The position numbers and the translations under genes are program-made. Of a stretch of DNA of 47,573 nucleotides, positions 8,853 to 38,846 are shown in pieces (within the stretch, counting starts at the first letter, position 1; each line of letters starts with the position of its first letter). A model generated the notes under the pieces. It saw only the letters and a program-made list of their open reading frames with translations, did no database searches and was not told where the DNA came from. Source of the DNA: Natrinema thermotolerans DSM 11552. GTDB taxonomy: Archaea > Halobacteriota > Halobacteria > Halobacteriales > Natrialbaceae. The stretch covers positions 161,463 to 209,035 of the forward strand of contig AOIR01000055.1 of the NCBI GenBank assembly GCA_000337115.1. Direction: 5' to 3'.

Positions 8853-10034
8853 ATGACCGACCGGAGCGACGCCGACGGACCGACCGATACCCCTTCGATC
8901 GCTCCCGCGGCGCTGGCCGAGCGGCTACGAACCGGGTCGGAACTGACCGTCCTCGACGTCCGTGACCGCGACGAGTTCGAACGCTGGCACCTCGCGGGCG
9001 AGGGGGTCGAGGCCGTCCAGATCCCGCACATGAAGTTCATCCAGGCACAGGCGACCGGCGGGGTGACCGACCTCGCGGCCGACCTCAAGGAGCCGATCCT
9101 GGCGGTCTGTGGACACGGCGAAGCGAGCGCCCACGCCGTTTCCCTCCTCCGGGACGCGGGGATCGACGCCGCCAACCTCGCCGGCGGGATGGACGCTTGG
9201 GCCGACCTGTACGTCGCTCGCGAACTGCCGGTCGACGCGCCCGCGACGGTCGTCCAGTACGACCGCCCCTCGAGCGGCTGTCTCGCCTACGCGATCTACA
9301 GCGACGGCGAAGCCGCGGTGATCGACCCGCTTCGGGCCTTTGCCGACCGGTACACCGCCGACGCCGACGACCGGGGCGCGACCCTCGAGTACGCCATCGA
9401 CACGCACGTCCACGCCGACCACGTCAGCGGCGTCCGGACGCTCGCGGACCGAACCGATGCGACGGCCGTCGTTCCCGCGGGCGCGACCGACCGCGGGCTG
9501 GCGTTCGAGGCCGTGACCGTCACTGATGGGGAGGAACTGCGGGTCGGCGACGCGACACTGACCGTCGCGGCCACGCCCGGACACACGAGCGAGTCCGTCT
9601 CCGTCCGGCTCGAGGGTGACGGCGGCGGGCCCCTGTTTACCGGCGATACGCTCTTCCTCGAAGGGGTTGGCCGACCGGACCTCGAACGCGGCGACGAGGG
9701 CGCAGCCGCCGCTGCCGAGGCGTTGTACGAGACGCTTCAAAACCGCGTCCTCGCGTTCCCCGACGACACGACGATCGCGCCGGGCCACTACGGCGACGCC
9801 GCCGAGTCGAGCGCGGATGGGACCTACGCCGCCCGGCTCGGCGACCTCCGCGATCGCCTCGAGGCGCTCTCGATGAACGATCGGGAGTTCCTGGCCCACG
9901 CGACGAGCGACCTCCCGCCGCGGCCGTCCAACCACGAGCGCATCGTGGCGGCGAACCTCGGGCACGAGGCGATCGACGACGAAACGGCGTTCGAACTCGA
10001 GTTGGGACCGAACAACTGCGCCGTCGCGGACTAA
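8853..10034 (+). CDS. Rhodanese / metallo-beta-lactamase fusion (persulfide-dioxygenase-like)
   Basis: A 393-residue two-domain enzyme. Residues ~15-125 form a rhodanese domain (VLDVRDRDEFERWHLAGE, active-site Cys86 in VCGHGEAS, AGGMDAWA). Residues ~130-300 form a metallo-beta-lactamase domain with the metal motif THVHADH (His185, His187, Asp189, His190), then TPGHTSES and FTGDTLF. This ligand set matches the ETHE1/persulfide dioxygenase and glyoxalase II branch. The likely role is sulfane-sulfur handling, with the rhodanese passing a persulfide to the lactamase-fold enzyme. Rhodanese comes first here, whereas many bacterial fusions have it last. The ATG at 8853 is preferred over an in-frame start at 8808, because GGTTTACC lies about 26-33 nt upstream of it. 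Confidence 0.88.
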   Translation: MTDRSDADGPTDTPSIAPAALAERLRTGSELTVLDVRDRDEFERWHLAGEGVEAVQIPHMKFIQAQATGGVTDLAADLKEPILAVCGHGEASAHAVSLLRDAGIDAANLAGGMDAWADLYVARELPVDAPATVVQYDRPSSGCLAYAIYSDGEAAVIDPLRAFADRYTADADDRGATLEYAIDTHVHADHVSGVRTLADRTDATAVVPAGATDRGLAFEAVTVTDGEELRVGDATLTVAATPGHTSESVSVRLEGDGGGPLFTGDTLFLEGVGRPDLERGDEGAAAAAEALYETLQNRVLAFPDDTTIAPGHYGDAAESSADGTYAARLGDLRDRLEALSMNDREFLAHATSDLPPRPSNHERIVAANLGHEAIDDETAFELELGPNNCAVAD

Positions 10035-10038
10035 CCGG

Positions 10039-10371
10039 TCAGTCGTCGGCGACCGCGCCGTCGCTCGAGACGGCCTCGAGGTCGCCCTCGATGCTCGGCG
10101 GATACTTCCCGCGGTCGAGTTTCAGGTCCGACTGCGGCCGGGCCATACAGGTCAGCGCGTAGTTCTCGGCCTCTTCCTCGGTGAGTCCGCGGGCAGCGGG
10201 CTGGGTGACCTCGCCCTCGACGATCTCGGCCGAACACGCCAGACACATCCCAACCCGGCAGGAGTATTCCTGGGCGATGCCCTCCTCGAGGCACCGGCTC
10301 AGGATGGTCTCTTTGTCGGTACAGGTGATGGTCTCACCCGTTCCGACGAACTCGATGGTGTACTCAGTCAT
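10039..10371 (-). CDS. 2Fe-2S ferredoxin
   Basis: A 110-residue plant-type ferredoxin. The cluster ligands are Cys38, Cys43, Cys46 and Cys75 in the pattern C-x4-C-x2-C-x28-C (YSCRVGMCLACSAEI, then LTCMARPQ). It lacks the roughly 25-residue acidic N-terminal insertion of the main haloarchaeal ferredoxin, so it is a second, standard-size one-electron carrier. It converges on the rhodanese gene. Its promoter element, CATAAAACGTTTT, is identical to that of the geranylgeranyl-reductase-type flavoprotein 650 bp away and has the same spacing to the start. I infer that it may be the electron donor for that enzyme. Confidence 0.93.
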   Translation of the reverse strand: MTEYTIEFVGTGETITCTDKETILSRCLEEGIAQEYSCRVGMCLACSAEIVEGEVTQPAARGLTEEEAENYALTCMARPQSDLKLDRGKYPPSIEGDLEAVSSDGAVADD

Positions 10372-10396
10372 ACCTCTCGGTACGACTGACCTCCCT

Positions 10397-10409
10397 AAAA
10401 CGTTTTATG
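10397..10409 (-). promoter_or_regulatory. TATA/palindrome promoter element of the ferredoxin gene
   Basis: Read on the minus strand this is CATAAAACGTTTT, centred about 32 nt before the ferredoxin ATG. It combines a TATA-like ATAAAA with the perfect palindrome AAAACGTTTT. The same 13 bases precede the flavoprotein gene at 10981-10993. Confidence 0.6.
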
Positions 10410-10458
10410 TGCCAGCGGACGCCGGCTGCGGCTGGCTCCGTCCAACCGCGGGAGGCGG

Positions 10459-10797
10459 CTAGATTTCCCGAACGAAATCTTCCGCGATCCACCAGTCGTC
10501 GTCTAGCTTGTGCCAGTCGACCTTGTAAACCTCCGTGCCGTCGTCGTCGGCGATCGCCCGAACGTATCCCGCCCAAGAGTGGTTGATCTCCGTCCAGTCA
10601 CCGCTTCTATCGCTGTTCTCCCAGCCGGGAGCGTACCCGAAGTCCCCCCAGGCCTGAACTTGATCACCCACGTCGATCCCCCAATCGGACGCACTGGCCG
10701 TGCCGACCGCGGCGACCGTACCGACACCCGCAGCGACCGTCGCGGCGGACGTTTTCAGCACGTTTCGTCGAGACCGTCCGTCGTCGTTTCCAGGCAT
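10459..10797 (-). CDS. Small Tat-exported hypothetical protein
   Basis: A 112-residue protein with a twin-arginine signal: SRRNVLK at residues 9-15, an Ala/Val-rich hydrophobic stretch, and a likely cleavage after ASA near residue 36. The mature part is only about 75 residues and is rich in Trp, Asp and Gly (SDWGIDVGDQVQAWGDFGY, WTEINHSWAGYVR, DWHKLDDDWWIAEDFV). This suggests a small folded SH3-like or beta-sandwich domain. No lipobox or C-terminal anchor is visible, so it should be released outside the cell. I do not recognise the family. A clear TATA box (GCATATAAAT, 10822-10831 on the plus strand) lies about 25-34 nt upstream in unusually AT-rich DNA, giving a leaderless mRNA. Confidence 0.8.
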   Translation of the reverse strand: MPGNDDGRSRRNVLKTSAATVAAGVGTVAAVGTASASDWGIDVGDQVQAWGDFGYAPGWENSDRSGDWTEINHSWAGYVRAIADDDGTEVYKVDWHKLDDDWWIAEDFVREI

Positions 10798-10980
10798 TGC
10801 ATTCGAACAGTGAATGTTGTCGCATATAAATTTAATCTAGAAAATATTACGAAGTAGACTTGTGCTGGATTGGTGAACCCGTGGGCCACGGCTGTAAGTG
10901 AAAAGACAGCCACACCACAACGTCGCGCTTGCTCCGAACCGGGTACTGCCGCGGTCAACGCGGCACCACCGCGGACCGAC

Positions 10981-10993
10981 CATAAAACGTTTT
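10981..10993 (+). promoter_or_regulatory. TATA/palindrome promoter element of the flavoprotein gene
   Basis: CATAAAACGTTTT, identical to the ferredoxin promoter element and centred about 33 nt before the ATG at 11020. ATAAAA is the likely TATA box, and the AAAACGTTTT palindrome could also be a repressor site overlapping it. Confidence 0.6.
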
Positions 10994-11019
10994 CTTACCA
11001 CGGCCTCCACACAGTTGAT

Positions 11020-12423
11020 ATGAGTACGCAGGAGCAGTCGGCCGCCACGACGCCGAAGACTCAGTCGCCGGACGCGGTCGTCGTCGGGGCCGGAACGTCA
11101 GGGTGCTACGCGGCAGCGACTATCGCACGGGCGGGGTACGACGTGGTCGTCCTCGAGCGAAAGGACGAGGAAGAGGCGGGCCACATCGCCTGTGGCGACG
11201 CCCTGAAGGGTGCCGATGCCTTCCCCGAAGCCATCCCGAAGTCCAAACTCGAGCCGGCCTTTACCAACACCGACGTCGACCACGGCCGGTTCGAGATTCC
11301 ACAGGAGGATACCGTCCTCGAGATCCCGGTACCGGGCGAACTCGCCGTCATCGACCGCTGGGAGTACGGCCGCCGGATCATCGACGGGGCCGAGGACAGG
11401 GGGGTCGAGTTTCGCTACGATACGGTCGTCCAGAACGTCCGCCAGAACGACGACGGCCGCGTCACGGGCGTCGAGGCGATCCGCAAGGGCGACCCGGTCA
11501 CCTACGAGGCCGACATCGTCATCGACGCCGCCGGCTCGCTGTCGGTGCTGCAAGACCACGTCGACTTCTCCGACTCCACGTTCGACACCAACGTCGACTA
11601 CAGCCACTTCTGTTCGGCCTACCGCGAGATCGTCGAAGTCGAGGAGCCCGTCGAGTGGGACGACGCGCTGGTCTTCAAGCCGACCGAGCGCGCGGCGGGC
11701 TATCTCTGGTATTTCCCGCGGACCGACACCGAGATCAACGCCGGCTTGGGCTTCCAGATGACCGAGGAGCCGATGCAACTGGTCGACGACCTCAAACGCG
11801 ACCTCGAGAACCGCCCCGAATTCGAGGGTGCCGAGGTCGAGGACAAACTCGGCGCGGCGCTGCCGACCCGGCGACCCTACGATTCGGCCGTGCATCCGGG
11901 CTACATGGCCATCGGCGACGCCGCCGGCCACGTCAACCCCACCACCGGCGGCGGCATCGCCGGGGCCGCCTACGGCGGCAAGTACGCCGCCGAGCGGGCC
12001 ATCGAGGCCCTCGAGACGGACGAGTTCGGCGAGGACGTCCTCTGGGAGTACAATCAAAAAGTGATGGACCACTTCGGCGCGCGCTACGCCGCGCTGGACG
12101 TCTACAACATCCTCTCGACGGCCGTCGACGTCGACGACCTGATGAGTCTACTCGCCGCCATGCCCGGCGACAAACTCGCCGAGGCGCTGTACTCGGGCAG
12201 TACCGACATCGGGCTCAAACTCAAACTCGAGGCGCTGGTCAAGAGCCGCGGCCACTGGGGCACGATCTGGAACCTCTACAAGACCAAGCGCCGGGCCGAC
12301 GAACTCCTCTCGCACTACGAGAACTACCCGACCAGTCCCGAGGGGCTGGCGGGCTGGCAGGACCGCCGTGACGAACTGATGGAAAAGGTCTACGAGACGA
12401 CCGGGGCCGACCCGAAATACTAG
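11020..12423 (+). CDS. Geranylgeranyl reductase-family FAD-dependent oxidoreductase
   Basis: A 467-residue flavoprotein. The N-terminal Rossmann motif is VVVGAGTSGCYAAATIARAG, ending in the ribose-binding Glu (VVLERKDE). The second FAD motif GDAAGHVNPTTGGGIAGAAY near residue 305 is characteristic of geranylgeranyl reductases. Family members hydrogenate the isoprenoid chains of archaeal membrane lipids or related polyprenoids. The IACGDALKGA segment contains a Cys seen in archaeal members. The start at 11020 (MSTQEQSAA) is chosen over an in-frame ATG at 10870, because the TATA-like element at 10981 sits at the right distance and the earlier stretch is not protein-like. Archaeal lipid versus menaquinone or carotenoid substrate cannot be settled here, since haloarchaea carry several paralogues. 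Confidence 0.85.
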   Translation: MSTQEQSAATTPKTQSPDAVVVGAGTSGCYAAATIARAGYDVVVLERKDEEEAGHIACGDALKGADAFPEAIPKSKLEPAFTNTDVDHGRFEIPQEDTVLEIPVPGELAVIDRWEYGRRIIDGAEDRGVEFRYDTVVQNVRQNDDGRVTGVEAIRKGDPVTYEADIVIDAAGSLSVLQDHVDFSDSTFDTNVDYSHFCSAYREIVEVEEPVEWDDALVFKPTERAAGYLWYFPRTDTEINAGLGFQMTEEPMQLVDDLKRDLENRPEFEGAEVEDKLGAALPTRRPYDSAVHPGYMAIGDAAGHVNPTTGGGIAGAAYGGKYAAERAIEALETDEFGEDVLWEYNQKVMDHFGARYAALDVYNILSTAVDVDDLMSLLAAMPGDKLAEALYSGSTDIGLKLKLEALVKSRGHWGTIWNLYKTKRRADELLSHYENYPTSPEGLAGWQDRRDELMEKVYETTGADPKY

Positions 12424-12432
12424 CCACCGAAC

Positions 12433-12698
12433 TTTTGCTCTGCGGGCGCGGCGAAGCCGCGCCCGCGGCAAAATCTCGAGAGAGCGCGAAGCGCTCTCTC
12501 GGACCTCGCGGGGGCTTCGCTCCCGCTTAGCTTCGATGAAAAGCACTCCTCCTTCCGTTCGTTCCTTTCAGTCACTCACATCAGTCGTCGGCCCGCTCGC
12601 TCGGCCTCCGGCCTCGCTCGCGGTCGGTGTCGGGCGGCGGCCTGCCCTCCCCCGAGTCGTGCGTCTCTCGCCGATGCTCGAGACGCACTCCCGGCCAG
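12433..12698 (+). repeat. Structured intergenic repeat, copy 1 (downstream of the flavoprotein gene)
   Basis: This starts ten bases after the flavoprotein stop. Blocks shared exactly or nearly so with the copy at 21570-21807 are TTTTGCTCTGCGG (12433-12445), CGGCAAAATCTCGA (12466-12479), AAAAGCACTCCTCCTTCC (12539-12556), a 23-base block at 12581-12603, a 22-base block at 12613-12634 and GCCTGCCCTCCCCCGA (12640-12655). Between them lie perfect or near-perfect hairpins at 12442-12466, 12478-12500 and 12508-12526, plus a 9-bp stem at 12659-12667/12680-12688. The outer arms TTTTGC and GCAAAA can also pair. No coding capacity is evident. The remaining 12699-12850 holds nothing else beyond the promoter of the next gene. 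Confidence 0.75.
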
Positions 12699-12850
12699 TG
12701 ATCGTTCGGCTTGTTCCGTTCGACTGACTCTCGAGTAACTGGAACGTTCGGCCGTCGGATACCGATTCGCTTCCCATAGTATCGTTTCCCGTGAATATTC
12801 CCCTACGCTGTTAGGATGTCTTGGCTTTCCTATCCGTCAAATAACGGGTT

Positions 12851-13663
12851 ATGATGGCACGGAACCACACACGGCGACGCGCACTGACACTGATCGGAAC
12901 CGCGAGCGGCATCGCGCTGGCCGGCTGTATGGGCGGCGACGACGGGGACGACGAGGAGATGAGCGACGACGATTCGGGCAACGGGATGGAAGACGACGGG
13001 ATGGAAGACGACGGGATGGACGACGACTCCGGGTCGGACGACATGGAGTCGTCCGGCTCGAACGTCCGGGTCGCACACCTCTCGCCCGACGCCCCCAACG
13101 TCGACGTCTCCGTCGACGGCGACGCCGTCCTCGAGGACGTGCCCTACCGGGCCGTCAGCGACTACCTCGACCTCGAACCCGACACCTACGAGGTGATGAT
13201 CACGGCCGCCGGCGACGCCGACACCGTCGTCTTCGATCAGGAACTCGAGATTGCCGAGGGGTCGTTCACGATCGCGGCCCTGGGCGAACTCGCCGACGAG
13301 AACCAGCCCTTCGAGCCGGCAGTTCTGGAAGACGACGTCAGCGATCCCGGCGACGACGCGCGGGTGCGGCTGGTCCACGCGTCGCCGGACGCCCCTGCAG
13401 TCGACGTCACCGTCGGCGACGGCGAGACCGTGCTGTTCGAGGACGCTGCCTTCGGCGACGCGGCCGCGACCGAAGTGCCGGGCGGCGACTACACCCTCGA
13501 GGTCCGCCCGGCGACGGAGACCAACGACGGCGACGTGGTCGCGACCTTCGACGTCGCTCCGGAGGGCGGCAACGTTTACAGCGCCTTCGCCGTCGGCTAC
13601 CTCGAGCCCGGCTCGGCTCCCGCCGACGAGGCGTTCGACCTCGAGGTCGTCATGGACGCCTGA
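12851..13663 (+). CDS. DUF4397 domain lipoprotein
   Basis: A 270-residue secreted lipoprotein. The N-terminus has RRRALTLIGTASGIALAGC, a Tat-like signal ending in a lipobox with the lipidated Cys at about residue 26. A low-complexity acidic linker follows, with three EDDGM-type repeats. Two DUF4397 units occupy about residues 72-160 and 170-265. Each opens with a strand reading VRVAHLSPDAPNVDV or VRLVHASPDAPAVDV, the family signature. DUF4397 proteins are extracytoplasmic beta-domain proteins of unknown function. Two ATGs stand in tandem (12851 and 12854) and either could be the start. It is probably membrane-anchored on the outside. Confidence 0.9.
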   Translation: MMARNHTRRRALTLIGTASGIALAGCMGGDDGDDEEMSDDDSGNGMEDDGMEDDGMDDDSGSDDMESSGSNVRVAHLSPDAPNVDVSVDGDAVLEDVPYRAVSDYLDLEPDTYEVMITAAGDADTVVFDQELEIAEGSFTIAALGELADENQPFEPAVLEDDVSDPGDDARVRLVHASPDAPAVDVTVGDGETVLFEDAAFGDAAATEVPGGDYTLEVRPATETNDGDVVATFDVAPEGGNVYSAFAVGYLEPGSAPADEAFDLEVVMDA

Positions 13664-13676
13664 TCGACGATACGGG

Positions 13677-14903
13677 TCAGCGCTGGGACCGAAGCCGTTC
13701 GATCCGGCGCTCCGTCGACGGGTGCGTGCCGAACAGCCGCCGGTGGAGGAACCGCCGCGTACGGTCGAAAAAGCGGTGTTCCTCCCACGGCGGCGGGACG
13801 ATCGAGAACGCAGCCGTCGAGCGGTGTTTGCGGAGATCGTTCGAGGGCCGTTCCTCGAGGGCGGAATCGAGTTTCTCGAGGGCGCTTGCCAGCGCCGCGG
13901 GGTCGCCGGTGATCGCGACGGCGCCGCGGTCGGCGACGTACTCCCGATAGCGGGTGACGACGGCGACGGACCACCGGACGAGGAGGATGACCATACCACA
14001 CGGGACGGCCACAAACGGGTGGAAATCGTAGCGCTCGATGAGCGCGGCCGCGGAAGCTGCGGGCACCGATAACGCGGTCAGCACCGCCGCGTCCCTGTTT
14101 TTCGCGTGGGCGAGTTCGTGTGCGAGGACGGCGTCGAGTTCGCGGTCATCGACGGCCTCGAGCAGGCCCTTGGAGACGACGATCGTGGACGATCCGGCCC
14201 GATAGCCGACGGTCGCTGCCGTCGGCGTCGACGAAACGCCAAGACGGACCGTCGGTGCGGGGAGATCGACCTGCTTGGCGAGCCGGTCGACACGGCGTTG
14301 GACGGCAGTTCGGCGTTCCTCGAGGTCCTCGTCGGGCCGATCGATGACGCGGACGACGCCTTCGATATCGCGGAGCGCAGCGGCGTCATCGGTTCGTTCG
14401 GAGTAGGCGATCCACGCCACGTGTGCGAGGACGACGAGGACGCCGACCGCAGCGGCGGCGGACAACGGATCGACGATCGAGCGCCACGCGACCGCCTCCG
14501 TGAACGCGAATCCGACGAACGTCCCGAGGGCCACACCGCCGAGCAGGCCGAGGATTTTCGGCCAGTTCGCGATCGCCTCCGCGGACAGCAGCGTCTCACC
14601 GACGGCTTCGACTGCGTTGGCGGTCCCGTCGTGAGCGATGCGATCCGAGAGGGTCTGTTCGGGATAGTAGCGTCGGATCACGATCGCGATGCCGAGCCAA
14701 CAAATGAACGCACCAGCGAACAGTAGCGAGACGAGGAAGAAAAAAGCGAGAAAATCCTCGAGCGCCACGAGGAGAAACAGTGCGACGAACCCGCCGACGA
14801 CGAACTCGAGTGCGAGGACCACGAGCTGTGCGGCTCCGACGAGAAGTCCGGCGACCGCCATCCGCACCCAGAGTCCGAGGTGGAGGGGCGTCGGACGGAT
14901 CAC
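13677..14903 (-). CDS. M48-family (HtpX-like) membrane metalloprotease, divergent
   Basis: A 408-residue integral membrane protease. Hydrophobic segments occupy about 11-70, 115-165 and 280-310. The zinc motif HELAH is at residues 262-266, with the third ligand likely in YREYVADRGA near 325. It resembles HtpX, which degrades misfolded membrane proteins, but it has an N-terminal extension of about 130 residues with four extra hydrophobic stretches compared with the standard HtpX encoded at 26217-27041. The start is GTG at 14903. It ends 13 bp from the stop of the converging lipoprotein gene. Zinc-protease activity is well supported; its substrates are unknown. Confidence 0.88.
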   Translation of the reverse strand: MIRPTPLHLGLWVRMAVAGLLVGAAQLVVLALEFVVGGFVALFLLVALEDFLAFFFLVSLLFAGAFICWLGIAIVIRRYYPEQTLSDRIAHDGTANAVEAVGETLLSAEAIANWPKILGLLGGVALGTFVGFAFTEAVAWRSIVDPLSAAAAVGVLVVLAHVAWIAYSERTDDAAALRDIEGVVRVIDRPDEDLEERRTAVQRRVDRLAKQVDLPAPTVRLGVSSTPTAATVGYRAGSSTIVVSKGLLEAVDDRELDAVLAHELAHAKNRDAAVLTALSVPAASAAALIERYDFHPFVAVPCGMVILLVRWSVAVVTRYREYVADRGAVAITGDPAALASALEKLDSALEERPSNDLRKHRSTAAFSIVPPPWEEHRFFDRTRRFLHRRLFGTHPSTERRIERLRSQR

Positions 14904-15032
14904 CGACCGGCCACCTCGAGCGCGGCCGTTCGGGTCGTCGATCGCGAATCGGGGACTGGATCAGCGGACTGCACCGTCACTGATCCGTACTGGTAGGATA
15001 CCCAAGAACATTCGGGGTCCGTTCTCGGTCGG

Positions 15033-16310
15033 TTACTGGTCGTGGCCGAGTCGCTCGATCGTGCCCGCGAGCGTGTCGATGCCGTGTTGGATACTTGCCT
15101 CGTCGACGTCGAACGTTGCGGTGTGGTGGCCGCCGGGGTGGTCGGTGCCGACGCCGACGTAGCAGGCACTGCCCCCGTTTTCCTGTACCGCCTGCATCAG
15201 ATAGGTCGCGTCCTCGCTGCCGCCCAGTTCGTCGCGCTCGAGGACGCGCTCGACGCCGGGCGTCTCGCCGGCGACGTCGGCGACGATCGAGACCAGTTCC
15301 TCGTCGCTGGTCGCACTGGGGGCCTCCGCACCGATCTCGAGTTCGACCTCGCAGTCGTGCATCGCGGCGGCGCTCCGGAGGACCTGCCGGGTCCGCCCTT
15401 TCATGTACTCCATCAGGTCGGTCGTCTCACCTCGTACCTCGGCGACGATCCGGGCCTCGGCCGGGATGACGTTGGCCGCGCTCCCGCCCTCGACGACGCC
15501 CGCGTTGACCCGCGTCGCGCCGTCGTTGTGCCGTGGAATCCCGTAGAGGTTCTGGACGGCCGTCGCCATCGCCTGGACGGCGTTGCGGCCCTGCTCGGGG
15601 TGTCCCCCCGCGTGGGACGACGCGCCGGTGAACTCGGCCTCGAGGTGCGAGACCGCCAGGAAGCCGTCGATACCGGCGACGATCTCGCCGGTCGGGTGGT
15701 CGAGGCCGATGTGGACCGCGAGCAGAGAGTCGACGTCCTGTAGGTGGTCGCTCTCGGCCATCGCCTTCCCACCGCCGACGACCTCCTCGGCGGGCTGGAA
15801 GAAGACCTTGAAGGTTCCCGTGAAATCGCTCTCGGCGATCCGCTCGAGTACGCCGATCCCGATCGTCGCGTGGGCGTCGTGGCCGCAGGCGTGCATCGCG
15901 CCCTCGTGGTCGGAGCGAAAGCCCTCGGCGACGGGCCGGTGGCCTGGGTCGTCGGACTCGGTTTGGGGTAGGCCGTCGATGTCGACCCGAAGGCCGACGG
16001 TCGGTCCTTCGCCGCGCTCGAGGACGGCCACTGCACCCGTATACCCGCCGTCCAGTCGCTCGAGAGTAGCGTCGTCGACGCCGGCGTCCCGCGCCTGTTC
16101 GTACCAGTGGGTGAATTCGGTTTCCTCGGGGACCGCCAGCCGGTGGTCGCCGGCGATCGCCTCGGGGCCGACGTGGAGTTCGGCGAGGTCGTCGCCCAGT
16201 CGGGACTCGAGTTCGTCGACGATCCGTGCAGTCGTGTAAAACTCCCGCCAGGCTGGTTCGGGTTTTCGGTGCAGGTCTCGACGCAGCGTAACGAGGTCGT
16301 CTGCGGTCAT
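15033..16310 (-). CDS. M20-family amidohydrolase
   Basis: A 425-residue M20D-type metallohydrolase (hippurate or N-acyl-amino-acid/IAA-amino-acid hydrolase family). The catalytic and metal region shows LRVDIDGLP, MHACGHDAHATIGIGVLE near residue 140 and FFQPAEEVVGGGKAM near 170, followed by the lid-domain insertion with GASSHAGGHPEQGRNA. The Cys and His of ACGHDAH and the Glu-Glu pair are conserved metal ligands. It removes an acyl group from an amino-acid or small amide substrate in the cytoplasm; the natural substrate is not evident. The ATG at 16310 gives MTADDLVTLRRDLHRKPE, the standard opening of this family. It lies just downstream of the uS10 paralogue on the same strand. Confidence 0.9.
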   Translation of the reverse strand: MTADDLVTLRRDLHRKPEPAWREFYTTARIVDELESRLGDDLAELHVGPEAIAGDHRLAVPEETEFTHWYEQARDAGVDDATLERLDGGYTGAVAVLERGEGPTVGLRVDIDGLPQTESDDPGHRPVAEGFRSDHEGAMHACGHDAHATIGIGVLERIAESDFTGTFKVFFQPAEEVVGGGKAMAESDHLQDVDSLLAVHIGLDHPTGEIVAGIDGFLAVSHLEAEFTGASSHAGGHPEQGRNAVQAMATAVQNLYGIPRHNDGATRVNAGVVEGGSAANVIPAEARIVAEVRGETTDLMEYMKGRTRQVLRSAAAMHDCEVELEIGAEAPSATSDEELVSIVADVAGETPGVERVLERDELGGSEDATYLMQAVQENGGSACYVGVGTDHPGGHHTATFDVDEASIQHGIDTLAGTIERLGHDQ

Positions 16311-16391
16311 ACGATCATCTCGTCGTGAACGACCAAAAGCCCTCCTGACGGTTTCGGTGTCCGACGATCGCAGAAGTGCGACCGAGGCCAG

Positions 16392-16727
16392 TCAGTTGCT
16401 GCGGCCGGCCCCGTGGATCTGCTCGACCTCGGCCTCGATGTGGACCGAGTCGGGGAAGTTCTGTGAGGCGATGTTGCGCGCGAGGTCGTCGTGGCCGTGG
16501 ATCTCGAGTTCGCGGGTGAAGACGGTGTACTCCCAGGAGTCGAAGTGACGGTCGTCGTCGGCGTGGAGCCGGCAACGCTGGGGGACCGACAGCTTTTCCG
16601 GCGGGTGGGAGTGGGGACCTTTCAGTGCCGCCCCCTTCCGTTCGGCGGTGGTTTTGATGTCCTCGACGATGCCATCGAGCGCGGCGCGATCGCCGCTCTG
16701 GAGGGTGAGACGGGTGACGAAGGTCAT
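16392..16727 (-). CDS. uS10-like ribosomal protein paralogue (uS10/mL48 family)
   Basis: A 111-residue protein with the uS10 fold order: a beta strand MTFVTRLTLQSGD, a helix (ALDGIVEDIKTTAERKG), the GPHSHPPEKLSVPQR loop, and WEYTVFTRELEIHG, where normal S10 has WE.R.HKRLID. The canonical haloarchaeal S10 lies beside EF-1alpha and reads differently; no translation-factor gene is adjacent here. This is therefore a second, diverged S10-like protein, longer by about ten residues and ending GAGRSN. It may replace S10 under some condition or act outside the ribosome, for example in antitermination as NusE does in bacteria. That role is speculative. Confidence 0.82.
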   Translation of the reverse strand: MTFVTRLTLQSGDRAALDGIVEDIKTTAERKGAALKGPHSHPPEKLSVPQRCRLHADDDRHFDSWEYTVFTRELEIHGHDDLARNIASQNFPDSVHIEAEVEQIHGAGRSN

Positions 16728-16907
16728 GGCTGGTGCTGTCGCATACGTCTGCGACGGGCGCGTAAAAACCTGCTGAGACGCGTCGCCGGCACGACAGTGA
16801 ACGACTGCAGACGATCGCCCGTCTCGTGCGTGACAATCCGGTCGGATCCGTGTCCGTAGGACGAACAGTCCGATATTCTCTTAACGTCGCACCTGTTAGC
16901 CCACCTA

Positions 16908-17348
16908 ATGGCAGTCGAAGCTACGAGCGCAGGCGCGATCCTCTTCCGCGACACGCGGGGCCGGCGCGAGTATCTTCTACTCAAGAGCCGCCCGGGCGAT
17001 TGGGAGTTTCCCAAGGGCGGTGTCGAAGGAGACGAAGAACTTCAGCAGACGGCTATCCGCGAAGTAACGGAAGAGGCAGGTATCGAACAGTTCCGACTAC
17101 TCGACGGCTTTCGCAAGGACTACGACTACGTCTTCGAGGCGAACGGCAAGACGATCCACAAGACCGTTCATCTCTTCATCGCGAAGTCGTTCGAAGCCAG
17201 CGCGGAACTATCGAACGAACATCGCGACCTCCAGTGGCGCGACTACGAACAGGCGGTAAACACCGTCACGCAGGACGGCCCCAGAGAGATCCTCGAGGAC
17301 GCCCACGAGTTCCTCGACGAACGCGAGGCAGAAGACGACGAGGAGTAG
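16908..17348 (+). CDS. Nudix hydrolase, bis(5'-nucleosyl)-tetraphosphatase type
   Basis: A 146-residue Nudix protein. The Nudix box spans residues 37-59 and matches the consensus G-x5-E-x7-REVTEEAG, preceded by WEFPKGGV. That preceding segment, with the short N-terminal ATSAGAILFRD, is typical of archaeal diadenosine-tetraphosphate hydrolases (Ap4A to ATP + AMP). The C-terminus is very acidic. Expected role: removal of Ap4A or other noxious nucleoside phosphates. TATTCTCTTAAC near 16871-16882 is about 26-37 nt upstream of the ATG and is the likely promoter. It is divergent from the uS10-like gene. Confidence 0.9.
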   Translation: MAVEATSAGAILFRDTRGRREYLLLKSRPGDWEFPKGGVEGDEELQQTAIREVTEEAGIEQFRLLDGFRKDYDYVFEANGKTIHKTVHLFIAKSFEASAELSNEHRDLQWRDYEQAVNTVTQDGPREILEDAHEFLDEREAEDDEE

Positions 17349-17507
17349 CCGGTCGCGGCCGGTGAGAAATCACTTCTCTCGTGTCGTGCGACGCGGGCAT
17401 CGCGACCGACCTCGAAATACGGTCGATAGCACCGCCCATATCGTTCGCTCGACCCGATCGTCGGCCGATCGGGCAGCGTTTTTGCACCTCCGAATTCAAC
17501 GGGGAGC

Positions 17508-18557
17508 GTGGACGCATACACCGCCGAGTTCGGGTTCGAACTCCGGACCTGCCGGTGGGCCGAACGCGAGTGGCCGCCCGGCGAAACCGACGGTGCTGAC
17601 ACCGCCGTCCTCGTCGCCCGCCAGCTCGGGACGACCCGCCGCCGCTGGGATACGATCGTCCTCGAGTGCGACCCCGAGGGGCTGCGCCGCCGCGCCCGGT
17701 TCGGCCCTGATCGGCTCGATAGCGACCTCCTGCACGTCGTCCGAAACGCCCCCGACGAGTGGTGCTACTACCGCGACGCGCTTCCCGACCCGGGCTATCC
17801 GTGGCGATACGTCCGCGAGTCGATCCACGAGGCCGCCGACCGCGGGATCCTCGAGACCCGCAAGTCGGGCAACCGGATCGAGATCCGTCGACAGTGGGCC
17901 TACCCCGACTGGCTCGAGCGGCTCGTCGCGATCGAGAACAAACCTGACTTGGACGCCAGCGCCGCCCGCGCGCTCGGATCACAACTCGAGTACGACGTGG
18001 CCGTCGGGCTGGCCGACGAGGCCTGGGTCGCGACCCGTCGAACGGACGAACCCGTCGAACCCGTCCTCTTCGAGGACCTGCCGGTCGAAGCCGGGGTCCT
18101 CGCGCTCGAGCCCGACGACCTGACCGCCGAGGTCGCGTGGTATCCTCGCTCGCTCCCGGTGACGGAACCGGGGACCCGCATCCTCGAGCAGCCGGACGGC
18201 GGTGAGCGGGACGGCTCGGCGGCCCGATTCGAGTACGCCGACACCGACTGGAAGGTCGACAAGCGCCTCGCCATCGCCGAGCGCGCCTACGAGCGCGGCT
18301 GGCGCTCGTTCGTCGACACGATGCGGCCCGACTGCCGCCACTTCGAGCTACGGGACCCCGACGGCTCACAGGCGCTGCCGTACTGCGCCGCCAAAGGGCG
18401 GTGCCAGACGGCCGCCGAATGCGCCGGCTCCTGCAGCGAGTTCGAGCCCGAACCGCCCGTCTGGCGCACCCGCGGCTGGCCGATCGAGGGCGGGCCCGGA
18501 AAACGGGTCCAGCGAATCCTCGCGGAGCGCCGGCGACGACGGCGACCGGAGCTGTAG
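17508..18557 (+). CDS. Probable Fe-S PD-(D/E)XK nuclease-like protein (DUF5787-type)
   Basis: A 349-residue protein starting with GTG at 17508. I believe it is the haloarchaeal DUF5787 family, without assigned function. The sequence shows a literal PD-x8-ExK motif (Pro133-Asp134 to Glu143-x-Lys145), followed by a helix with GSQLEYDVAVGLADEAW, the arrangement of motifs III and IV in PD-(D/E)XK nucleases. One Cys lies near the N-terminus (Cys15), and a C-terminal cluster holds Cys276, Cys293, Cys299, Cys305 and Cys309. An N-terminal Cys plus C-terminal Cys cluster bracketing such a nuclease is how Cas4 and AddB hold an Fe-S cluster. No cas or helicase gene is adjacent. A DNA repair or replication nuclease is inferred. 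The C-terminus is Arg-rich (RRRRRRPEL). Confidence 0.6.
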   Translation: MDAYTAEFGFELRTCRWAEREWPPGETDGADTAVLVARQLGTTRRRWDTIVLECDPEGLRRRARFGPDRLDSDLLHVVRNAPDEWCYYRDALPDPGYPWRYVRESIHEAADRGILETRKSGNRIEIRRQWAYPDWLERLVAIENKPDLDASAARALGSQLEYDVAVGLADEAWVATRRTDEPVEPVLFEDLPVEAGVLALEPDDLTAEVAWYPRSLPVTEPGTRILEQPDGGERDGSAARFEYADTDWKVDKRLAIAERAYERGWRSFVDTMRPDCRHFELRDPDGSQALPYCAAKGRCQTAAECAGSCSEFEPEPPVWRTRGWPIEGGPGKRVQRILAERRRRRRPEL

Positions 18558-18581
18558 TCGTCGACCGTTCGAAACGGTGGT

Positions 18582-19085
18582 TCAGTCGGAGACGGCGACC
18601 TCGAGGTCCGCACGCTCGACGGCCAGCCGGAACGTGGGGACGGTGCGGTACTCGACTTCGACGACGCCCTTGCGCCGGAGACTCTGGAGGCCCGACCGGA
18701 CGTCCTCGGCCTCGGCGTCGACGTCGTACTCGTCCCGGAGTTTGTGCAGTACCGAGACGACGCTCTCGGACTCCTCGTCCGGGCCGGAAAGCACCGCCAC
18801 GATCCGCGCCTGTAGTTCCGGGACGCGGACCTTCGAGGGGACCCCCTCGTCGTCCGGGTCGCTCTCGATCCCCGGCTCGACGTCGACCAGCTCGGCGGCT
18901 TCGGCGGTCGCTCGGATCAGACTGTTGTCGTCCCGGAAGTAGTAATCGCCGAGTTCGTTCTCGAGGTACTGGTGGACCTCGCTGCCGCTCTCCATCCCCC
19001 ACCGCTCCTGCAGTTCGCCGTTCTTCGTCGGCTGTAGCTCCACCACGTCCGCCAACCGGTCCTGGGCCTCCTCCGAGAGCGTCAT
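18582..19085 (-). CDS. DUF5797-type haloarchaeal protein (winged-helix-like)
   Basis: A 167-residue acidic protein starting MTLSEEAQDRLADVVELQPTK. The N-terminal part (NGELQERWGMESGSEVHQYL) and C-terminal part (VLHKLRDEYDV, then VRSGLQSLRRKGVVEVEYRT) look like two helix-turn-helix segments separated by an acidic linker. Haloarchaeal proteins of this form are grouped as DUF5797. A regulatory or DNA-binding role is inferred from the winged-helix look only. The ATG at 19085 is chosen because upstream in-frame sequence runs into the epoxide-hydrolase gene. It converges on the nuclease-like gene with a 24-bp gap. Confidence 0.75.
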   Translation of the reverse strand: MTLSEEAQDRLADVVELQPTKNGELQERWGMESGSEVHQYLENELGDYYFRDDNSLIRATAEAAELVDVEPGIESDPDDEGVPSKVRVPELQARIVAVLSGPDEESESVVSVLHKLRDEYDVDAEAEDVRSGLQSLRRKGVVEVEYRTVPTFRLAVERADLEVAVSD

Positions 19086-19156
19086 CGTCGAACCGTATGG
19101 GGATCCGGTACTTTTGCGTTGCGTCCCGCCGCGGCTCGAGCGACTCCGCCCCGTCC

Positions 19157-20320
19157 TCAGCCGAACTCGCCGGCGAACGATCGCAGGTCCTCGACGAACA
19201 GTTCCGGCACCTCCATCGCGGCGAAGTGGCCGCCCTCGGGCTGTTCGGACCAGTACTCGACGTCGTAGACCGCCTCGGCCCAGCCGCGGGGCGTCTTGTA
19301 CACTTCGGCCGGATAGCGCGCGTGGCCCGTCGGCACGTCGACCGACTCCGGCGTCGCCGCGCCCACGTCCGTCTCGGCGTAGAGTCGCATCGAAGAGCCG
19401 ATCGTGCCGGTCAGCCAGTAGACGCTGAGGTTGTCGAGCAGCCGGTCGCGGTCGATCCACGACTCGAGGTCGCCGTCGCAGTCGCTCCAGGCGCGGAACT
19501 TCTCGACGATCCAGCCCGCCAGCCCGGCCGGCGAGTCGGTGAGTCCGTAGGCCAGACTCTGTGGTTTGGTCGCCTGAATCTCGTGGTAGGCGGTTTCGGT
19601 CTCGCTGAACGCCGCGGTCTCCCGGTAGTCGGCCATCCCTCGTTCGTCGAGCAGGTCGGTCGGGTCCTCAGCGTCGAGCGACGAGGGGTGTAGAAAGAGC
19701 ATGTTCGTGTGGATCGCGTCCACGCGATCGGGGTAGTTCGCACCCAGTAGCGCGGCGACCAGCGCGCCCCAGTCCCCGCCCTGTGCGACGTAGCGGTCGT
19801 AGCCGAGCCGGGCCATCAGGTCGGCGACGGCGTCGGCGATGCGGGGCACGTCGTATCCTTGCTCCGCTGTCGGGCCGGAGAAGCCAAAGCCCGGCAGCGA
19901 GGGCGCGACGACGTGAAAGGCGTCGGCCGGATCGCCGCCGTGGGCGGCCGGATCCGTCAGCGGCCCGAAAACGTCGAGGAACTCGGTGACGGAGCCCGGC
20001 CAGCCGTGGCTCAAAACGAGCGGCGTCGCGTCCGGCTCGGGCGAGCGGACGTGATAGAAATGCAGCCGCTGGCCGTCGATCGTCGTCACGTACTGGTCGA
20101 ACTCGTTGCACCGGTCCTCGAATGCCGCCCAGTCGAACTCCGCGCGCCAGTACGCACAGAGGTCCCGGAGAAACTCGCGGTCGGTCCCGTCCGCCCAGCC
20201 CGTCTCGGGAAGCTGGTCCGGCCAGCGCGTCCGCTCGAGACGCGTCCGGAGGTCGTCGATCTCGTCCGGATCGACAGACACCTCGAACGAGCGAATCGAA
20301 TCGTCGGTGTCCGTCGTCAT
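19157..20320 (-). CDS. Epoxide hydrolase (alpha/beta-hydrolase with EHN domain)
   Basis: A 387-residue alpha/beta hydrolase. Residues 10-105 are the N-terminal epoxide-hydrolase (EHN) domain (VDPDEIDDLRTRLERTRWPD). Then come the oxyanion motif HGWPGSVTEF near 105, the nucleophile Asp183 in GGDWGAL, and the charge-relay His in EGGHFAAME near the C-terminus. The YALTDSPAGLAGWIVEKF lid segment is typical of the microsomal/juvenile-hormone epoxide hydrolase family. The reaction is opening of an epoxide to a diol via an ester intermediate. The physiological substrate is unknown. The start at 20320 (MTTDTDDSIR) is preferred over one 25 codons upstream, where the sequence is basic and unlike the family. 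Confidence 0.92.
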   Translation of the reverse strand: MTTDTDDSIRSFEVSVDPDEIDDLRTRLERTRWPDQLPETGWADGTDREFLRDLCAYWRAEFDWAAFEDRCNEFDQYVTTIDGQRLHFYHVRSPEPDATPLVLSHGWPGSVTEFLDVFGPLTDPAAHGGDPADAFHVVAPSLPGFGFSGPTAEQGYDVPRIADAVADLMARLGYDRYVAQGGDWGALVAALLGANYPDRVDAIHTNMLFLHPSSLDAEDPTDLLDERGMADYRETAAFSETETAYHEIQATKPQSLAYGLTDSPAGLAGWIVEKFRAWSDCDGDLESWIDRDRLLDNLSVYWLTGTIGSSMRLYAETDVGAATPESVDVPTGHARYPAEVYKTPRGWAEAVYDVEYWSEQPEGGHFAAMEVPELFVEDLRSFAGEFG

Positions 20321-20407
20321 GTCGCTACCCCGGTTCGAGTTCCGCCATCGTTCGTGATACCGACCCGCATACCGGATTCGACGCGACCGCGTCACAAAGG
20401 GGTATCG

Positions 20408-21226
20408 TCAATCGTCACCGATGACCGGAACCGGAACCGTCGTCTCGAGGGTCTCCTCGACCTGCGTGTAGACGAGGATCGTCCCGAGGGCGGCGAGCGC
20501 GGTCCCGAAGACGAACGGGGTCTCGAAGCCGAACCGCACCAGCGCGCCCGAGGAGAGCGGCCCGACCGCGATCCCGTAGCCGAAAGCCATCGTCAGCACC
20601 GACAGCTTCGAGCCCGACTCACCCTCGCCGGCGAGGTCGCCGGCCAGCGCCAGCGACGGGGCAAAGACCATCGCGGCGGCGATTCCCTGAAACAGGCGAG
20701 CCAGGAACATCAGCGACGAGGAGAGGAGGAAGCCCTGGACGAGCGTCGTCGGGATCAGCAGTGCCATCCCGGTCACGATGAACGGCCGCCGGCCGTACCG
20801 ATCGCAGGCCCGCCCGATCGGCGTCTGGAGCGCGACCTGTGCGATGATAAACCCCGCGAACTGCAGGCCGAACCAGGTCGCCCCCTGCTCGAGGCGGGCG
20901 TTGACCTGGGGCTGGATGGTCGCGAACAGCGCGATGGCGGTCGCCATGAAAAACGACGCGACCCCGAGGGTGAAGATCGGATCGAGCAGGTTCGAGCCGG
21001 TCCGATCGAGGATCGGGATCGAGAGGTCCGCGCCGGCGTTGGCGGCCGTCGACTCGGGGTCCGAGACCAGCACCGTCACCATGACGTAGCTGATCGTCGC
21101 GGTGATCGTCGCGACGTAAAAGGCGGCGTCGAACCCGGAGACCGCCAGACCGCCGGCCTCGTCGCTTTCCGCCTCGCTATCGACGCCGTCACCTCCCTCT
21201 CGCGGGGCGACTTCTTTTCTACACAC
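20408..21226 (-). pseudogene. N-terminally truncated MFS transporter (probable remnant)
   Basis: A 272-residue frame that looks like half to two-thirds of a 12-helix major facilitator protein of the DHA1 drug-transporter type. The first hydrophobic stretch (AAFYVATITATISYVMVTVLV) resembles helix 6 and its exit. It is followed by a hydrophilic loop and about six helices containing IGRACDRYGRRPF, LARLFQGIAAAMVF and GYGIAVGPLSSGAL. Full-length relatives have about 400 residues. An in-frame stop lies directly upstream of the GTG at 21226, and only 29 bp separate it from the divergent TFS gene, so no N-terminal half can exist at this locus. A functional half-size carrier is possible, but a decaying truncated gene is more likely. 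The real start, if any, is uncertain. Confidence 0.55.
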
Positions 21227-21255
21227 TTAACCGGGGTGAGCGACAACCGAAGCGT

Positions 21256-21564
21256 ATGGAATTCTGCGACGAATGCGGTTCGATGATGAAGGCCGACGAC
21301 GGCCTCTGGGAGTGTGGCAGCTGTGGGTACACGGAGCCGAAAGGCGACGCCGACCAGTACATCGTCACCGACGATCAGGAGGTCGGCGAAATCATCGAGT
21401 CCTCCGGCGAGACCTCGCTGCCCGAGACCGACGCCATCTGTCCCGAATGCGGCAACGACCGGGCCCACTGGTACATGCAACAGATCCGCTCGGCCGACGA
21501 GTCCGAGACGCGCTTCTTCATCTGCACCGAGTGCGAACACAAGTGGCGCGAGGACGACAACTAA
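21256..21564 (+). CDS. tfs: Transcription factor S (archaeal TFIIS-like cleavage factor)
   Basis: A 102-residue protein with two zinc ribbons. The N-terminal one uses C-x2-C (FCDECGSMM) and C-x2-C (WECGSCGY); the C-terminal one uses CPECG and CTECEHKW. The acidic hairpin SADESETRFF holds the paired Asp-Glu that enters the RNA polymerase active site and stimulates transcript cleavage in backtracked complexes. Length is standard for archaeal TFS. It is divergent from the truncated transporter with only 29 bp between starts. A structured repeat begins just after its stop codon. Confidence 0.95.
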   Translation: MEFCDECGSMMKADDGLWECGSCGYTEPKGDADQYIVTDDQEVGEIIESSGETSLPETDAICPECGNDRAHWYMQQIRSADESETRFFICTECEHKWREDDN

Positions 21565-21807
21565 CGAAATTTTGCTCTGCGGTCTATCGCGAGCGAAGCG
21601 CTCGGCGCTTCGCTCGCGATGTCCCTCGGCAAAATTTCGATTAAAAGCACTCCTCCTTCCCCGTCAGCCGCGCGGAACGCGGCTTCTGGGTCAGTCGTCG
21701 GCCCGCTCGCTCGCCCTACGGGCTCGCTCGCGGTCGGTGTCGGGTGACTGCCTGCCCTCCCCCGAATCGCGGGCTCCTCGCGTTGCTCGGAGCCCGCTCT
21801 CGGCCAT
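21565..21807 (+). repeat. Structured intergenic repeat, copy 2 (downstream of tfs)
   Basis: This starts immediately after the tfs stop codon. Inverted arms CGAAATTTTGC (21565-21575) and GCAAAATTTCG (21629-21639) enclose a 15-bp perfect hairpin (21586-21600/21606-21620). Then come AAAAGCACTCCTCCTTCC (21643-21660), the 23-base block at 21691-21713, the 22-base block at 21723-21744, GCCTGCCCTCCCCCGA (21750-21765), and a terminal stem at 21769-21776/21790-21797. Spacing between the last three blocks is identical to copy 1 (32 and 27 nt). The hairpins differ in sequence from copy 1 but still pair. No protein is encoded. Confidence 0.75.
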
Positions 21808-21852
21808 TGCTCTCTCGAGCTGAATACGGAATTTGAGTAAGGAGAAACCGCA

Positions 21853-22638
21853 CTACTCGTTGCGCGCGATCGTCAGATAGCCGGTGTGACCGACGGGCGC
21901 GGTCGTCGGCCGCGAGCCCCGCTCGTCGAACTGCATCTCGCGCTGGATCGTCTCTCGAGTGGTGACGTTCGCGAGGCCGACTTCGCCGGCCGTCCGTGCG
22001 ACCTCGCGGGTCGACTCGATGAAGGGGCTGTAGACCGCAACGAAGCCGCCGTCGACCAAGAGGTCGGGCGCGTGTTCGACCATCGTGGGCGCGTCGGCCG
22101 TATCGAGGGTCATGACGTCGAACGACGACGGCTCGAGGCCGTCGATCTCCTCGGTCACGTCGCCGGTCCGGACGTCGACGGCGTCGGCCACGCCGCCGAG
22201 TGCCATGTTCTCGCGAGCCACGTCGGCGAACTCGGCGTCCTGTTCGTAGGTCACGACCTCGGCCCCGGCCCGGGCCAGCAGGGCCGCGAGGACGCCGGTT
22301 CCGGTGCCGGCGTCGAGGACCCGGTCGCCGCCGGCGATGCCGGTCTCGCCGATGACGAGCCCGATATCGCGGGGTACCATCGGCGCGCCCGTCCGCTCGA
22401 AGTGATGGAAGAGATCCGGGCCGCGCAGCCGGCGCACCTGGAACTCGTCGCCCAGATGCGTCTCGATGGTGTCGCCCGACTGCACGTCCTCGGGGACCTC
22501 GAGAACGCCGAGGTCGGTCCCCTGTTCGCCGCCGGGTTCGACGAGGTACTCGCGGTCGCCGCGGACGAGTAGGACCGGAACGCGATTCGTTCCGCGCTCG
22601 GCGTCGTCCGCGCTCTCGTCCTCGCTCACGCGAGTCAC
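21853..22638 (-). CDS. trmI: tRNA (adenine-N1)-methyltransferase, TrmI family
   Basis: A 261-residue SAM-dependent methyltransferase of the archaeal TrmI type, which makes m1A at positions 57/58 of the tRNA T-loop. An N-terminal beta domain ([15 protein letters not shown]) precedes the Rossmann core with SAM motif [20 protein letters not shown] near residue 105 and the acidic motif II (VTYEQD). The [13 protein letters not shown] segment just before motif I is typical of the family. It starts with GTG at 22638, whose last two bases plus the following A form the TGA stop of the upstream NAC gene (GTGA overlap). The two are therefore co-transcribed and translationally coupled. Confidence 0.9.
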
Positions 22639-23015
22639 TCGAGGGATTCGACTGCTGCGGCGAGGTCGCCGTCGGCGTCCTCGAGGGCCTCCCGGGCCTC
22701 GTCTTCGCTGACGCCGGCACGGGTCGCGACGAGTTCGACGTCCTCGTCAGGGATCGACGAGCCGGCGTCGCCCCCGGTGTCGGCACTGCCGCCGGCCGAG
22801 CCGGCCTCGACCTCCTCGGGCGAGCCGATGACCTGGTAGGTCTCCTGGCCGCGGGCGTCCATCTTGGTGACCTCGGCGTCGTCGAAGACGAGGTCGTACT
22901 CGTCGGTGCGGATGATGACCTCTTCGGCGTCGATGTCCTCGACGTCGATGCCCATCTGTTCCATCATCTGTTCCATCTTGCGCGGGTTGAGTCCGCCGCC
23001 GCCTCCTCCGAACAT
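22635..23015 (-). CDS. nac: Nascent polypeptide-associated complex protein (archaeal NAC)
   Basis: A 126-residue ribosome-associated chaperone beginning [24 protein letters not shown], the standard archaeal NAC opening. The NAC domain covers about residues 30-75 ([21 protein letters not shown]). A flexible acidic/Gly-Ser linker leads to a C-terminal UBA domain ([21 protein letters not shown]). Archaeal NAC forms homodimers that bind emerging chains at the ribosome. The ATG at 23015 is chosen over an in-frame GTG nine bases upstream. It overlaps the trmI start by four bases. Confidence 0.95.
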
Positions 23016-23093
23016 ACTCGACACGTGGCCACGGGCGACCTTTTAGTTTGTCGTTCGCTCGAGGGTGGGCGGACAGTCCCGGCCGTCAGTGTC

Positions 23094-23122
23094 GGCGCGA
23101 CCGCAGGACCCGCGGTCGCGCC
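23094..23122. terminator. Strong GC hairpin between the SDR and NAC genes
   Basis: A perfect 11-bp inverted repeat, GGCGCGACCGC (23094-23104) and GCGGTCGCGCC (23112-23122), with a 7-base loop. It lies 22 bp past the SDR stop and about 80 bp before the NAC start, on the path between two same-strand genes. A terminator or processing signal for the SDR mRNA is inferred. There is no T-run directly after it on that strand, which weakens the terminator reading. Confidence 0.4.
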
Positions 23123-23144
23123 GCCGATCGTACAACAGTCCGTC

Positions 23145-38741: not shown

Positions 38742-38846
38742 AACCGCGAGCGAACGTAGTGAGTGAGCGGCTTTTTGGTCCAGATTTTTGCACGAGGGGT
38801 GAGCGACCATCGGGAGTGAACCCGAGTGGAAAAAGGTGGATGCCGC
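38742..38846 (+). repeat. Intergenic hairpin repeat downstream of purNH
   Basis: This starts at the purNH stop. It has GCGAGCGAACGTAGTGAGTG followed by AGCGG, then CTTTTTGGTCCAGATTTTTGC, a GC-rich hairpin region with CCATCGGGAGTG, and AAAAAGGTGG. The T-runs on the plus strand could also end purNH transcription. The TTTTTGC/AAAAAG framing resembles a dispersed haloarchaeal intergenic repeat. Confidence 0.5.

Follow-up and report, generated by a model that had tools for sequence, protein, structure and literature searches.

Structured repeats behind haloarchaeal housekeeping genes as a probable composite two-way transcription terminator

In a 47,573-nucleotide stretch of Natrinema thermotolerans DSM 11552 (contig AOIR01000055.1, positions 161,463 to 209,035; hereafter the window), two intergenic regions carry copies of a structured element of about 220 bases that recurs behind genes of many haloarchaea. 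We propose, with a probability of roughly 0.6, that it works as a composite two-way transcription terminator, or insulator, at the 3' ends of genes for housekeeping proteins, signal recognition particle (SRP) RNA and tRNAs. An earlier note on this DNA, made from its letters alone, had not named this reading, which is the best fit to the results. The position and orientation of the copies, the family they form, their covariation, the strand that is structured and the double U4 (two UUUU tracts) were all established by computation. The element is read as a two-way terminator because the double U4 follows a stable hairpin on the strand opposite to the host gene, a simpler version of this layout occurs in gene sense, some copies follow a gene on the structured strand, and no promoter-like signal lies at a fixed distance from the element.

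A chromosomal family behind stop codons

Copy 1 lies directly 3' of the plus-strand stop codon TAG (12421-12423) of a geranylgeranyl-reductase-family gene (GGR) and extends to 12696, and copy 2 directly 3' of the plus-strand stop TAA (21562-21564) of tfs, extending to 21805. As the earlier note had described, both contain the same blocks in the same order, AAAAGCACTCCTCCTTCC (18 bases), TCAGTCGTCGGCCCGCTCGCTCG (23), CTCGCTCGCGGTCGGTGTCGGG (22) and GCCTGCCCTCCCCCGA, the first three matching over the lengths it had given. A chance likeness is excluded, since BLAST inside the window aligned the 123-base right part of the two copies with E = 8.6e-30.

A DNA search of the whole genome found about 20 further copies (the covariance model gave 19 places in the genome), and a search of relatives gave mostly 12-32 matches in each genome of the same genus, with 1 in a single genome (G003). 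An exact-pattern scan of named genomes returned at least 114 stretches, from genomes that include those of Natrinema, Haloterrigena, Natrialba, Natronococcus, Natronorubrum, Natrarchaeobius, Halovivax, Halostagnicola, Haladaptatus, Halomarina and Halobacterium. The covariance-model search that the earlier note had suggested found far more than its two copies: the model of the core (R1) matched in at least 178 of the 293 genomes of the order, with at most 10 matches scored per genome, so that the copy counts are lower bounds. Copies occur throughout Natrialbaceae, and recognisable ones in six or more haloarchaeal families besides it, the weak matches in distant families having been inspected at 30 loci. 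Outside the order, no genome of a phylum-wide sample was among the covariance-model matches listed. Viral and phage collections gave 0 matches, and plasmids only four records with the element, with no annotated feature beneath the matches. The family is chromosomal and large. It also appears to be unnamed, as the earlier note had stated: no Rfam covariance model matched positions 10000-24000 at E <= 1, and the literature searched, short sequence strings included, held no earlier description of the element.

The copies are tied to the ends of genes. A coding stop on the same strand lies within 260 nt in 144 of 175 non-identical copies (gene calls outside the window were made with a simple codon-position rule), and in 130 of the 144 a TTTT starts 4-10 nt after that stop. 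The use of stop codons ahead of the element is skewed, with TAA (88), TAG (35) and TGA (6), those of long open reading frames of the same loci being TAA (148), TAG (119) and TGA (214). Host genes in the Natrinema genome include those for GGR, EngB, the DNA polymerase D large subunit, ribosomal protein L16/L10e, TFS, TbsP, Pan2, two thermosome subunits, eIF1A and a PurF-like enzyme. Translation is not needed, since the element also stands behind the SRP RNA gene and, at two loci, behind tRNA genes. At two other loci, convergent genes lie tail to tail, each with its own element, and at three the element comes after a gene on the opposite, structured strand and ahead of the next gene. Separately, in five loci from several species the element is flanked by two gene starts, one of them that of a ribosomal-protein-LX-like gene (MASFTVVVGDPE), and apparently lies within a divergent promoter region.

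The same genes bear the element in different species or families, with hairpins exchanged: TFS, GGR, the DNA polymerase D large subunit, SRP RNA and PhoU. Behind tfs, the T4 and hairpin A were found in 26 of 29 Natrinema genomes, visibly decayed in two of these; three tfs genes are free of it, and one of them (L198) retains a T tract (TAACGAAATTTT). In other families it occupies tfs in two, GGR in a third, PhoU in two and SRP RNA in one, where TFS, GGR and PhoU were named by comparing C-terminal residues with the Natrinema proteins and not by family search.

Covarying structure on the strand opposite to the host gene

The copies were aligned on the gene strand (64 copies) and on the opposite strand (62 copies). 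In the first alignment the column pairs with the highest mutual information are nearly all Watson-Crick pairs with double changes, such as GC23/AT22/CG16, GC41/AT21 and TA33/CG27. In the second, 25 pairs have 97.0% of their cells paired versus 83.2% after shuffling, and the covariation score is 0.426, a value reached by 0 of 500 shuffled alignments, which score 0.167 +/- 0.008; sliding the alignment gave at most 0.119. The pair that closes hairpin B next to UUUU covaries as well (GC57, AT3, TA1). An asymmetric internal loop of hairpin A, KCTGC / TCG (columns 15-19 / 70-72 of alignment A1), is nearly invariant in the midst of helices that vary. The structural conservation that the earlier note had suggested from its two copies is supported by a repeat family at gene 3' ends with covarying pairs. 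Its observation of swapped stems that still pair also holds, the stems of hairpins A and B being wholly different between orthologs with pairing kept.

The structured RNA is the strand opposite to the host gene. The helices drawn on the gene strand place invariant TC opposite TC, which on the opposite strand become tandem GA steps (hence GA strand below). Near-pairs on the gene strand are C-A in 83 cases and G-U in 14 (40 versus 4 in helix D), and this excess indicates that the wobble pairs are mostly on the opposite strand. ViennaRNA folded the opposite strand better for 60 of 62 cores and 60 of 61 B hairpins, with folding z-scores of -2.75 for the opposite strand versus -1.29 for the gene strand. 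A gene-sense structure, which had been the starting assumption, was rejected by the wobble and folding tests. The earlier note's 'structured 3' untranslated region (UTR)' was accordingly right in location and wrong in strand: the structured RNA is opposite to the gene that precedes the element. Its conserved blocks, taken there as loops, turned out to be the two strands of a minus-strand helix in which Watson-Crick and GA steps alternate.

In copy 1, the left arm of hairpin A (CGAAC-TTTT-GC, 12428-12438, plus strand) holds a T4 at 12433-12436, 9 nt after the stop, the proposed plus-strand terminator of the gene. The interior and right arm (GCGGGCGCGGC/GCCGCGCCCGC) follow at 12439-12473, and on the minus strand their AAAA at 12470-12473 reads as the distal U4. 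The proximal minus-strand U4 (12539-12542) adjoins hairpin B (12543-12592, minus strand), which reads GCC-GA-C-GA-CU-GA-UGU... up to UUUU and alternates Watson-Crick and tandem GA steps. Left unconstrained, the minus strand folded into this GA-ladder hairpin with a second one stacked beside it, hairpin C (predicted at 12593-12623, minus strand; CCGC-GA-GC-GA-...-GA-GC-GA-GCGG), with B ending exactly at UUUU. The aligned block GCCTGCCCTCCCCCGA (12640-12655) and the terminal hairpin D of the minus strand (GTGCGTCTC/GAGACGCAC with flanks up to GGCC, 12652-12696) complete the copy. Of the segments between blocks, for which hairpins had been claimed, 12557-12580, between the first two blocks of copy 1, forms none on the plus strand; its hairpin is on the minus strand and includes tandem GA pairs.

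Copy 2 has the same plan: a hairpin A left arm CGAAATTTTGC (21565-21575, plus strand) with a T4 at 21570-21573, 5 nt after the stop; an interior and right arm (21576-21642) with AAAA at 21631-21634 as the minus-strand distal U4; and, on the minus strand, a proximal U4 8 nt from it (21643-21646), predicted hairpins B (21647-21702, three tandem GA steps) and C (21703-21733), and block GCCTGCCCTCCCCCGA with terminal hairpin D (GCGGGCTC/GAGCCCGC) up to GGCC (21750-21805). The 5' and terminal stems are as first described and pair in both copies.

The copies also vary in their modules. Double-hairpin cassettes, CTYNAAAAGAGC..GCTCTTTTGGACCTCGCGGGATC..GATCCCGCTNAG and GTCGTTCGA..TGATGACGA..CGAACCACG, interrupt hairpin A at set positions, and their stems vary from copy to copy; one occupies 12475-12530 within the right arm of hairpin A in copy 1, is absent from copy 2 and occurs in many other copies, and cassettes were recorded at six further loci. 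Module D is missing from most other families. A second 3' module (GTGAACGGCGTCGTTCGGGTTCTCCGAACCGCTCACTCGCC) replaces it at four loci and in three copies of another family, and is found, for example, behind thermosome and eIF1A genes.

Termination in two directions and its alternatives

On the opposite strand hairpin B is followed by UUUU-N8-UUUU, with a spacing of exactly 8 nt in 135 of 175 copies and two U4 in 158 of 175. The double U4 is present on the GA strand only, and hairpin B is a stable hairpin immediately ahead of a U run. The motif is otherwise rare in these GC-rich loci, with 113 occurrences in 0.9 Mb, most or all of which are presumably elements. In Methanococcus maripaludis, binding of aCPSF1 requires two U4 tracts (PMC8716108), and in Haloferax a T stretch gave 95% termination (PMC7237163); archaeal termination has been described as U-tract-based, with RNA structure or an upstream hairpin not strictly needed (PMC8716108, PMC7237163). 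aCPSF1 is encoded in the Natrinema genome (TIGR03675, 973 bits, above the cut-off) and may well act at the element.

The same layout exists in simple form in gene sense. On the plus strand at 38739-38789, a stop TAG (38739-38741) is followed after 2 nt by a hairpin (38744-38770), a C, TTTTT (38772-38776), 8 nt and TTTTT (38785-38789), the hairpin being a GA ladder (CCGC-GA-GC-GA-...-GA-GT-GA-GCGG). A GA-ladder hairpin followed by a U tract, 8 nt and a U tract was found at 22 sites, in this window and elsewhere in the genus, and 6 of the 22 (this one and five others) lie 2-8 nt after a same-strand stop; the pattern read backwards gave zero matches. This simple version is recurrent in Natrinema genomes and has a conserved tail (GCGCGAGTGGT).

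We envisage that a polymerase leaving the host gene would meet the T4 4-10 nt past the stop and terminate. A polymerase coming from downstream would transcribe hairpins D, C and B, expected to fold as Watson-Crick pairs alternating with tandem G-A/A-G pairs, and hairpin B would end at UUUU-N8-UUUU, where the double U4 is of the type to which aCPSF1, an archaeal termination factor, binds. Antisense RNA would thereby be stopped before its entry into the host gene, and the purpose of the element would be to block antisense or read-through transcription.

Several points weigh against this proposal. Termination on both sides is deduced here from sequence and predicted structure, and the T4 on the gene side is short. 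Convergent neighbours downstream are not clearly enriched (37 convergent and 31 codirectional versus 223 and 252 in the background). A standard terminator scan of 12300-12860 returned 0 sites; such a scan is blind to stems that contain GA pairs. The strand bias in folding is partly compositional, shuffled sequences accounting for -7.9 of the -13.3 kcal/mol difference. The base of helix B has the reverse wobble bias (6 GU, 0 CA) and a single position of the alignment, C104-A143, supplies 35 of the 83 C-A near-pairs, so that the wobble argument is carried by helix D. Finally, termination alone would not call for a 3' module as elaborate as D.

The last point touches on an alternative that we consider unlikely, in which transcripts from downstream have the GA-strand RNA as their 3' UTR, with the GA-ladder hairpins serving to block exonucleases or to bind a protein. 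Tandem GA pairs are frequent protein-binding features, the structure of the GA strand is strong, and a terminator has no need of module D or of the conserved single-stranded block GCCTGCCCTYCCCCG; but no convergent gene lies downstream of almost half of the copies, what fixes the position of a copy is the stop of the host gene and not a gene of the GA strand, and the hairpin ends in a double U4. In its narrowest form, as the 3' UTR of a convergent neighbour only, the idea was rejected, neighbour orientation being near background.

Quite improbable, in our judgement, is a mobile hairpin-based element (MITE-, REP- or IS200/IS605-like) that inserts behind terminators, one of the possibilities raised by the earlier note. 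In its favour, a genome has many copies, hairpins are swapped and double-hairpin cassettes are nested; the T tract kept by the element-free L198 tfs ortholog would suit it too, as would the copies away from gene ends beside sequence resembling insertion sequences (IS). However, orthologous genes are occupied across species and families (26 of the 29 Natrinema genomes carry the element at the tfs site, as do two other families), viral and phage collections gave no copies and plasmids only the four records, so that mobility is not supported as the principal explanation; orientation to the gene is also fixed, and the copies inspected showed no associated transposase. Eight copies with a common upstream tag (TACGTGTGC / ACGTGCATA) lie close to IS-like sequence and not at gene ends; they may have turned mobile.

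We give still less credit to trans-acting small RNAs as a family, with genes that converge on housekeeping genes and transcripts that end at the common hairpin A. Such a family would suit the covarying set of hairpins and the double U4 at the 3' end, but about 20 near-identical loci per genome are locked to stop codons and most other families lack module D. The stand-alone small RNA gene suggested at the outset is likewise disfavoured, because on neither strand was a TATA-like signal found at a constant distance beyond the element, upstream of the RNA's 5' end included, and no sequence is conserved beyond GGCC. A DNA-level signal with no RNA role (a cruciform or protein-binding site) is hardly credible: pairing is possible in DNA too, where tandem GA and GT pairs are stable, but the strong strand asymmetry, the U tracts at the hairpin exit and the fixed place relative to transcription speak against it.

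If the element is indeed a two-way terminator, a family of covarying structures at dozens of 3' ends per genome, common to the haloarchaea, would mean that structure matters for termination in at least one archaeal group. It would provide a testable signal, a GA-ladder hairpin with U4-N8-U4, point to a shielding of core genes against antisense transcription, and offer a possible ready terminator part for halophile genetics. The RNA helix itself is unusual in its in-register repeated tandem GA steps, conserved in organisms with molar internal salt. More tentatively, and with the odds against it, the GA-ladder hairpin with a double U tract 8 nt apart might constitute an undescribed class of structured archaeal terminator, and the antisense-strand composite a genome-wide firewall against antisense transcription for housekeeping, SRP RNA and tRNA genes, possibly working through a dedicated GA-helix-binding protein.

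Comparison with known systems

Bacterial intrinsic terminators, which include bidirectional ones for convergent genes, resemble the element in the hairpin adjoining a U run and in one 3' end serving two directions. In the element, however, the stem is broken by tandem GA pairs, with no continuous Watson-Crick hairpin and an empty standard scan, and the two directions use separate parts. Repetitive extragenic palindromes (REP), bacterial interspersed mosaic elements (BIME) and other intergenic palindromic repeats likewise occur in many intergenic copies behind genes as mosaic palindromic units. REP/BIME are built from a 20-40 bp palindromic unit mobilised by the RAYT transposase, whereas the element is about 220 nt long, has long invariant blocks, keeps a fixed orientation and distance to the stop and follows orthologous genes across species and families. 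Miniature inverted-repeat transposable elements (MITEs) and palindrome-associated transposable elements of haloarchaea are similarly short, repeated, palindrome-rich and non-coding; the element differs in its conserved orthologous positions and was not found in viruses, and no target-site duplication or transposase relative was seen, no empty/occupied pair with clean borders having been analysed.

Kink-turn RNAs share with the element tandem sheared-type GA pairs beside Watson-Crick stems, but the GA steps of the element recur periodically; a kink-turn was ruled out, the predicted folds of hairpins B and C having no three-nucleotide bulge by the GA pairs. The archaeal U-tract terminators that depend on aCPSF1 (FttA) also have T/U tracts directly downstream of genes, and the two U4 of the GA strand fit the minimum aCPSF1 site of Methanococcus maripaludis, the factor being encoded in the genome. 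What sets the element apart from them is the conserved, covarying multi-hairpin structure ahead of its U tracts, in a layout common to many genes and species.
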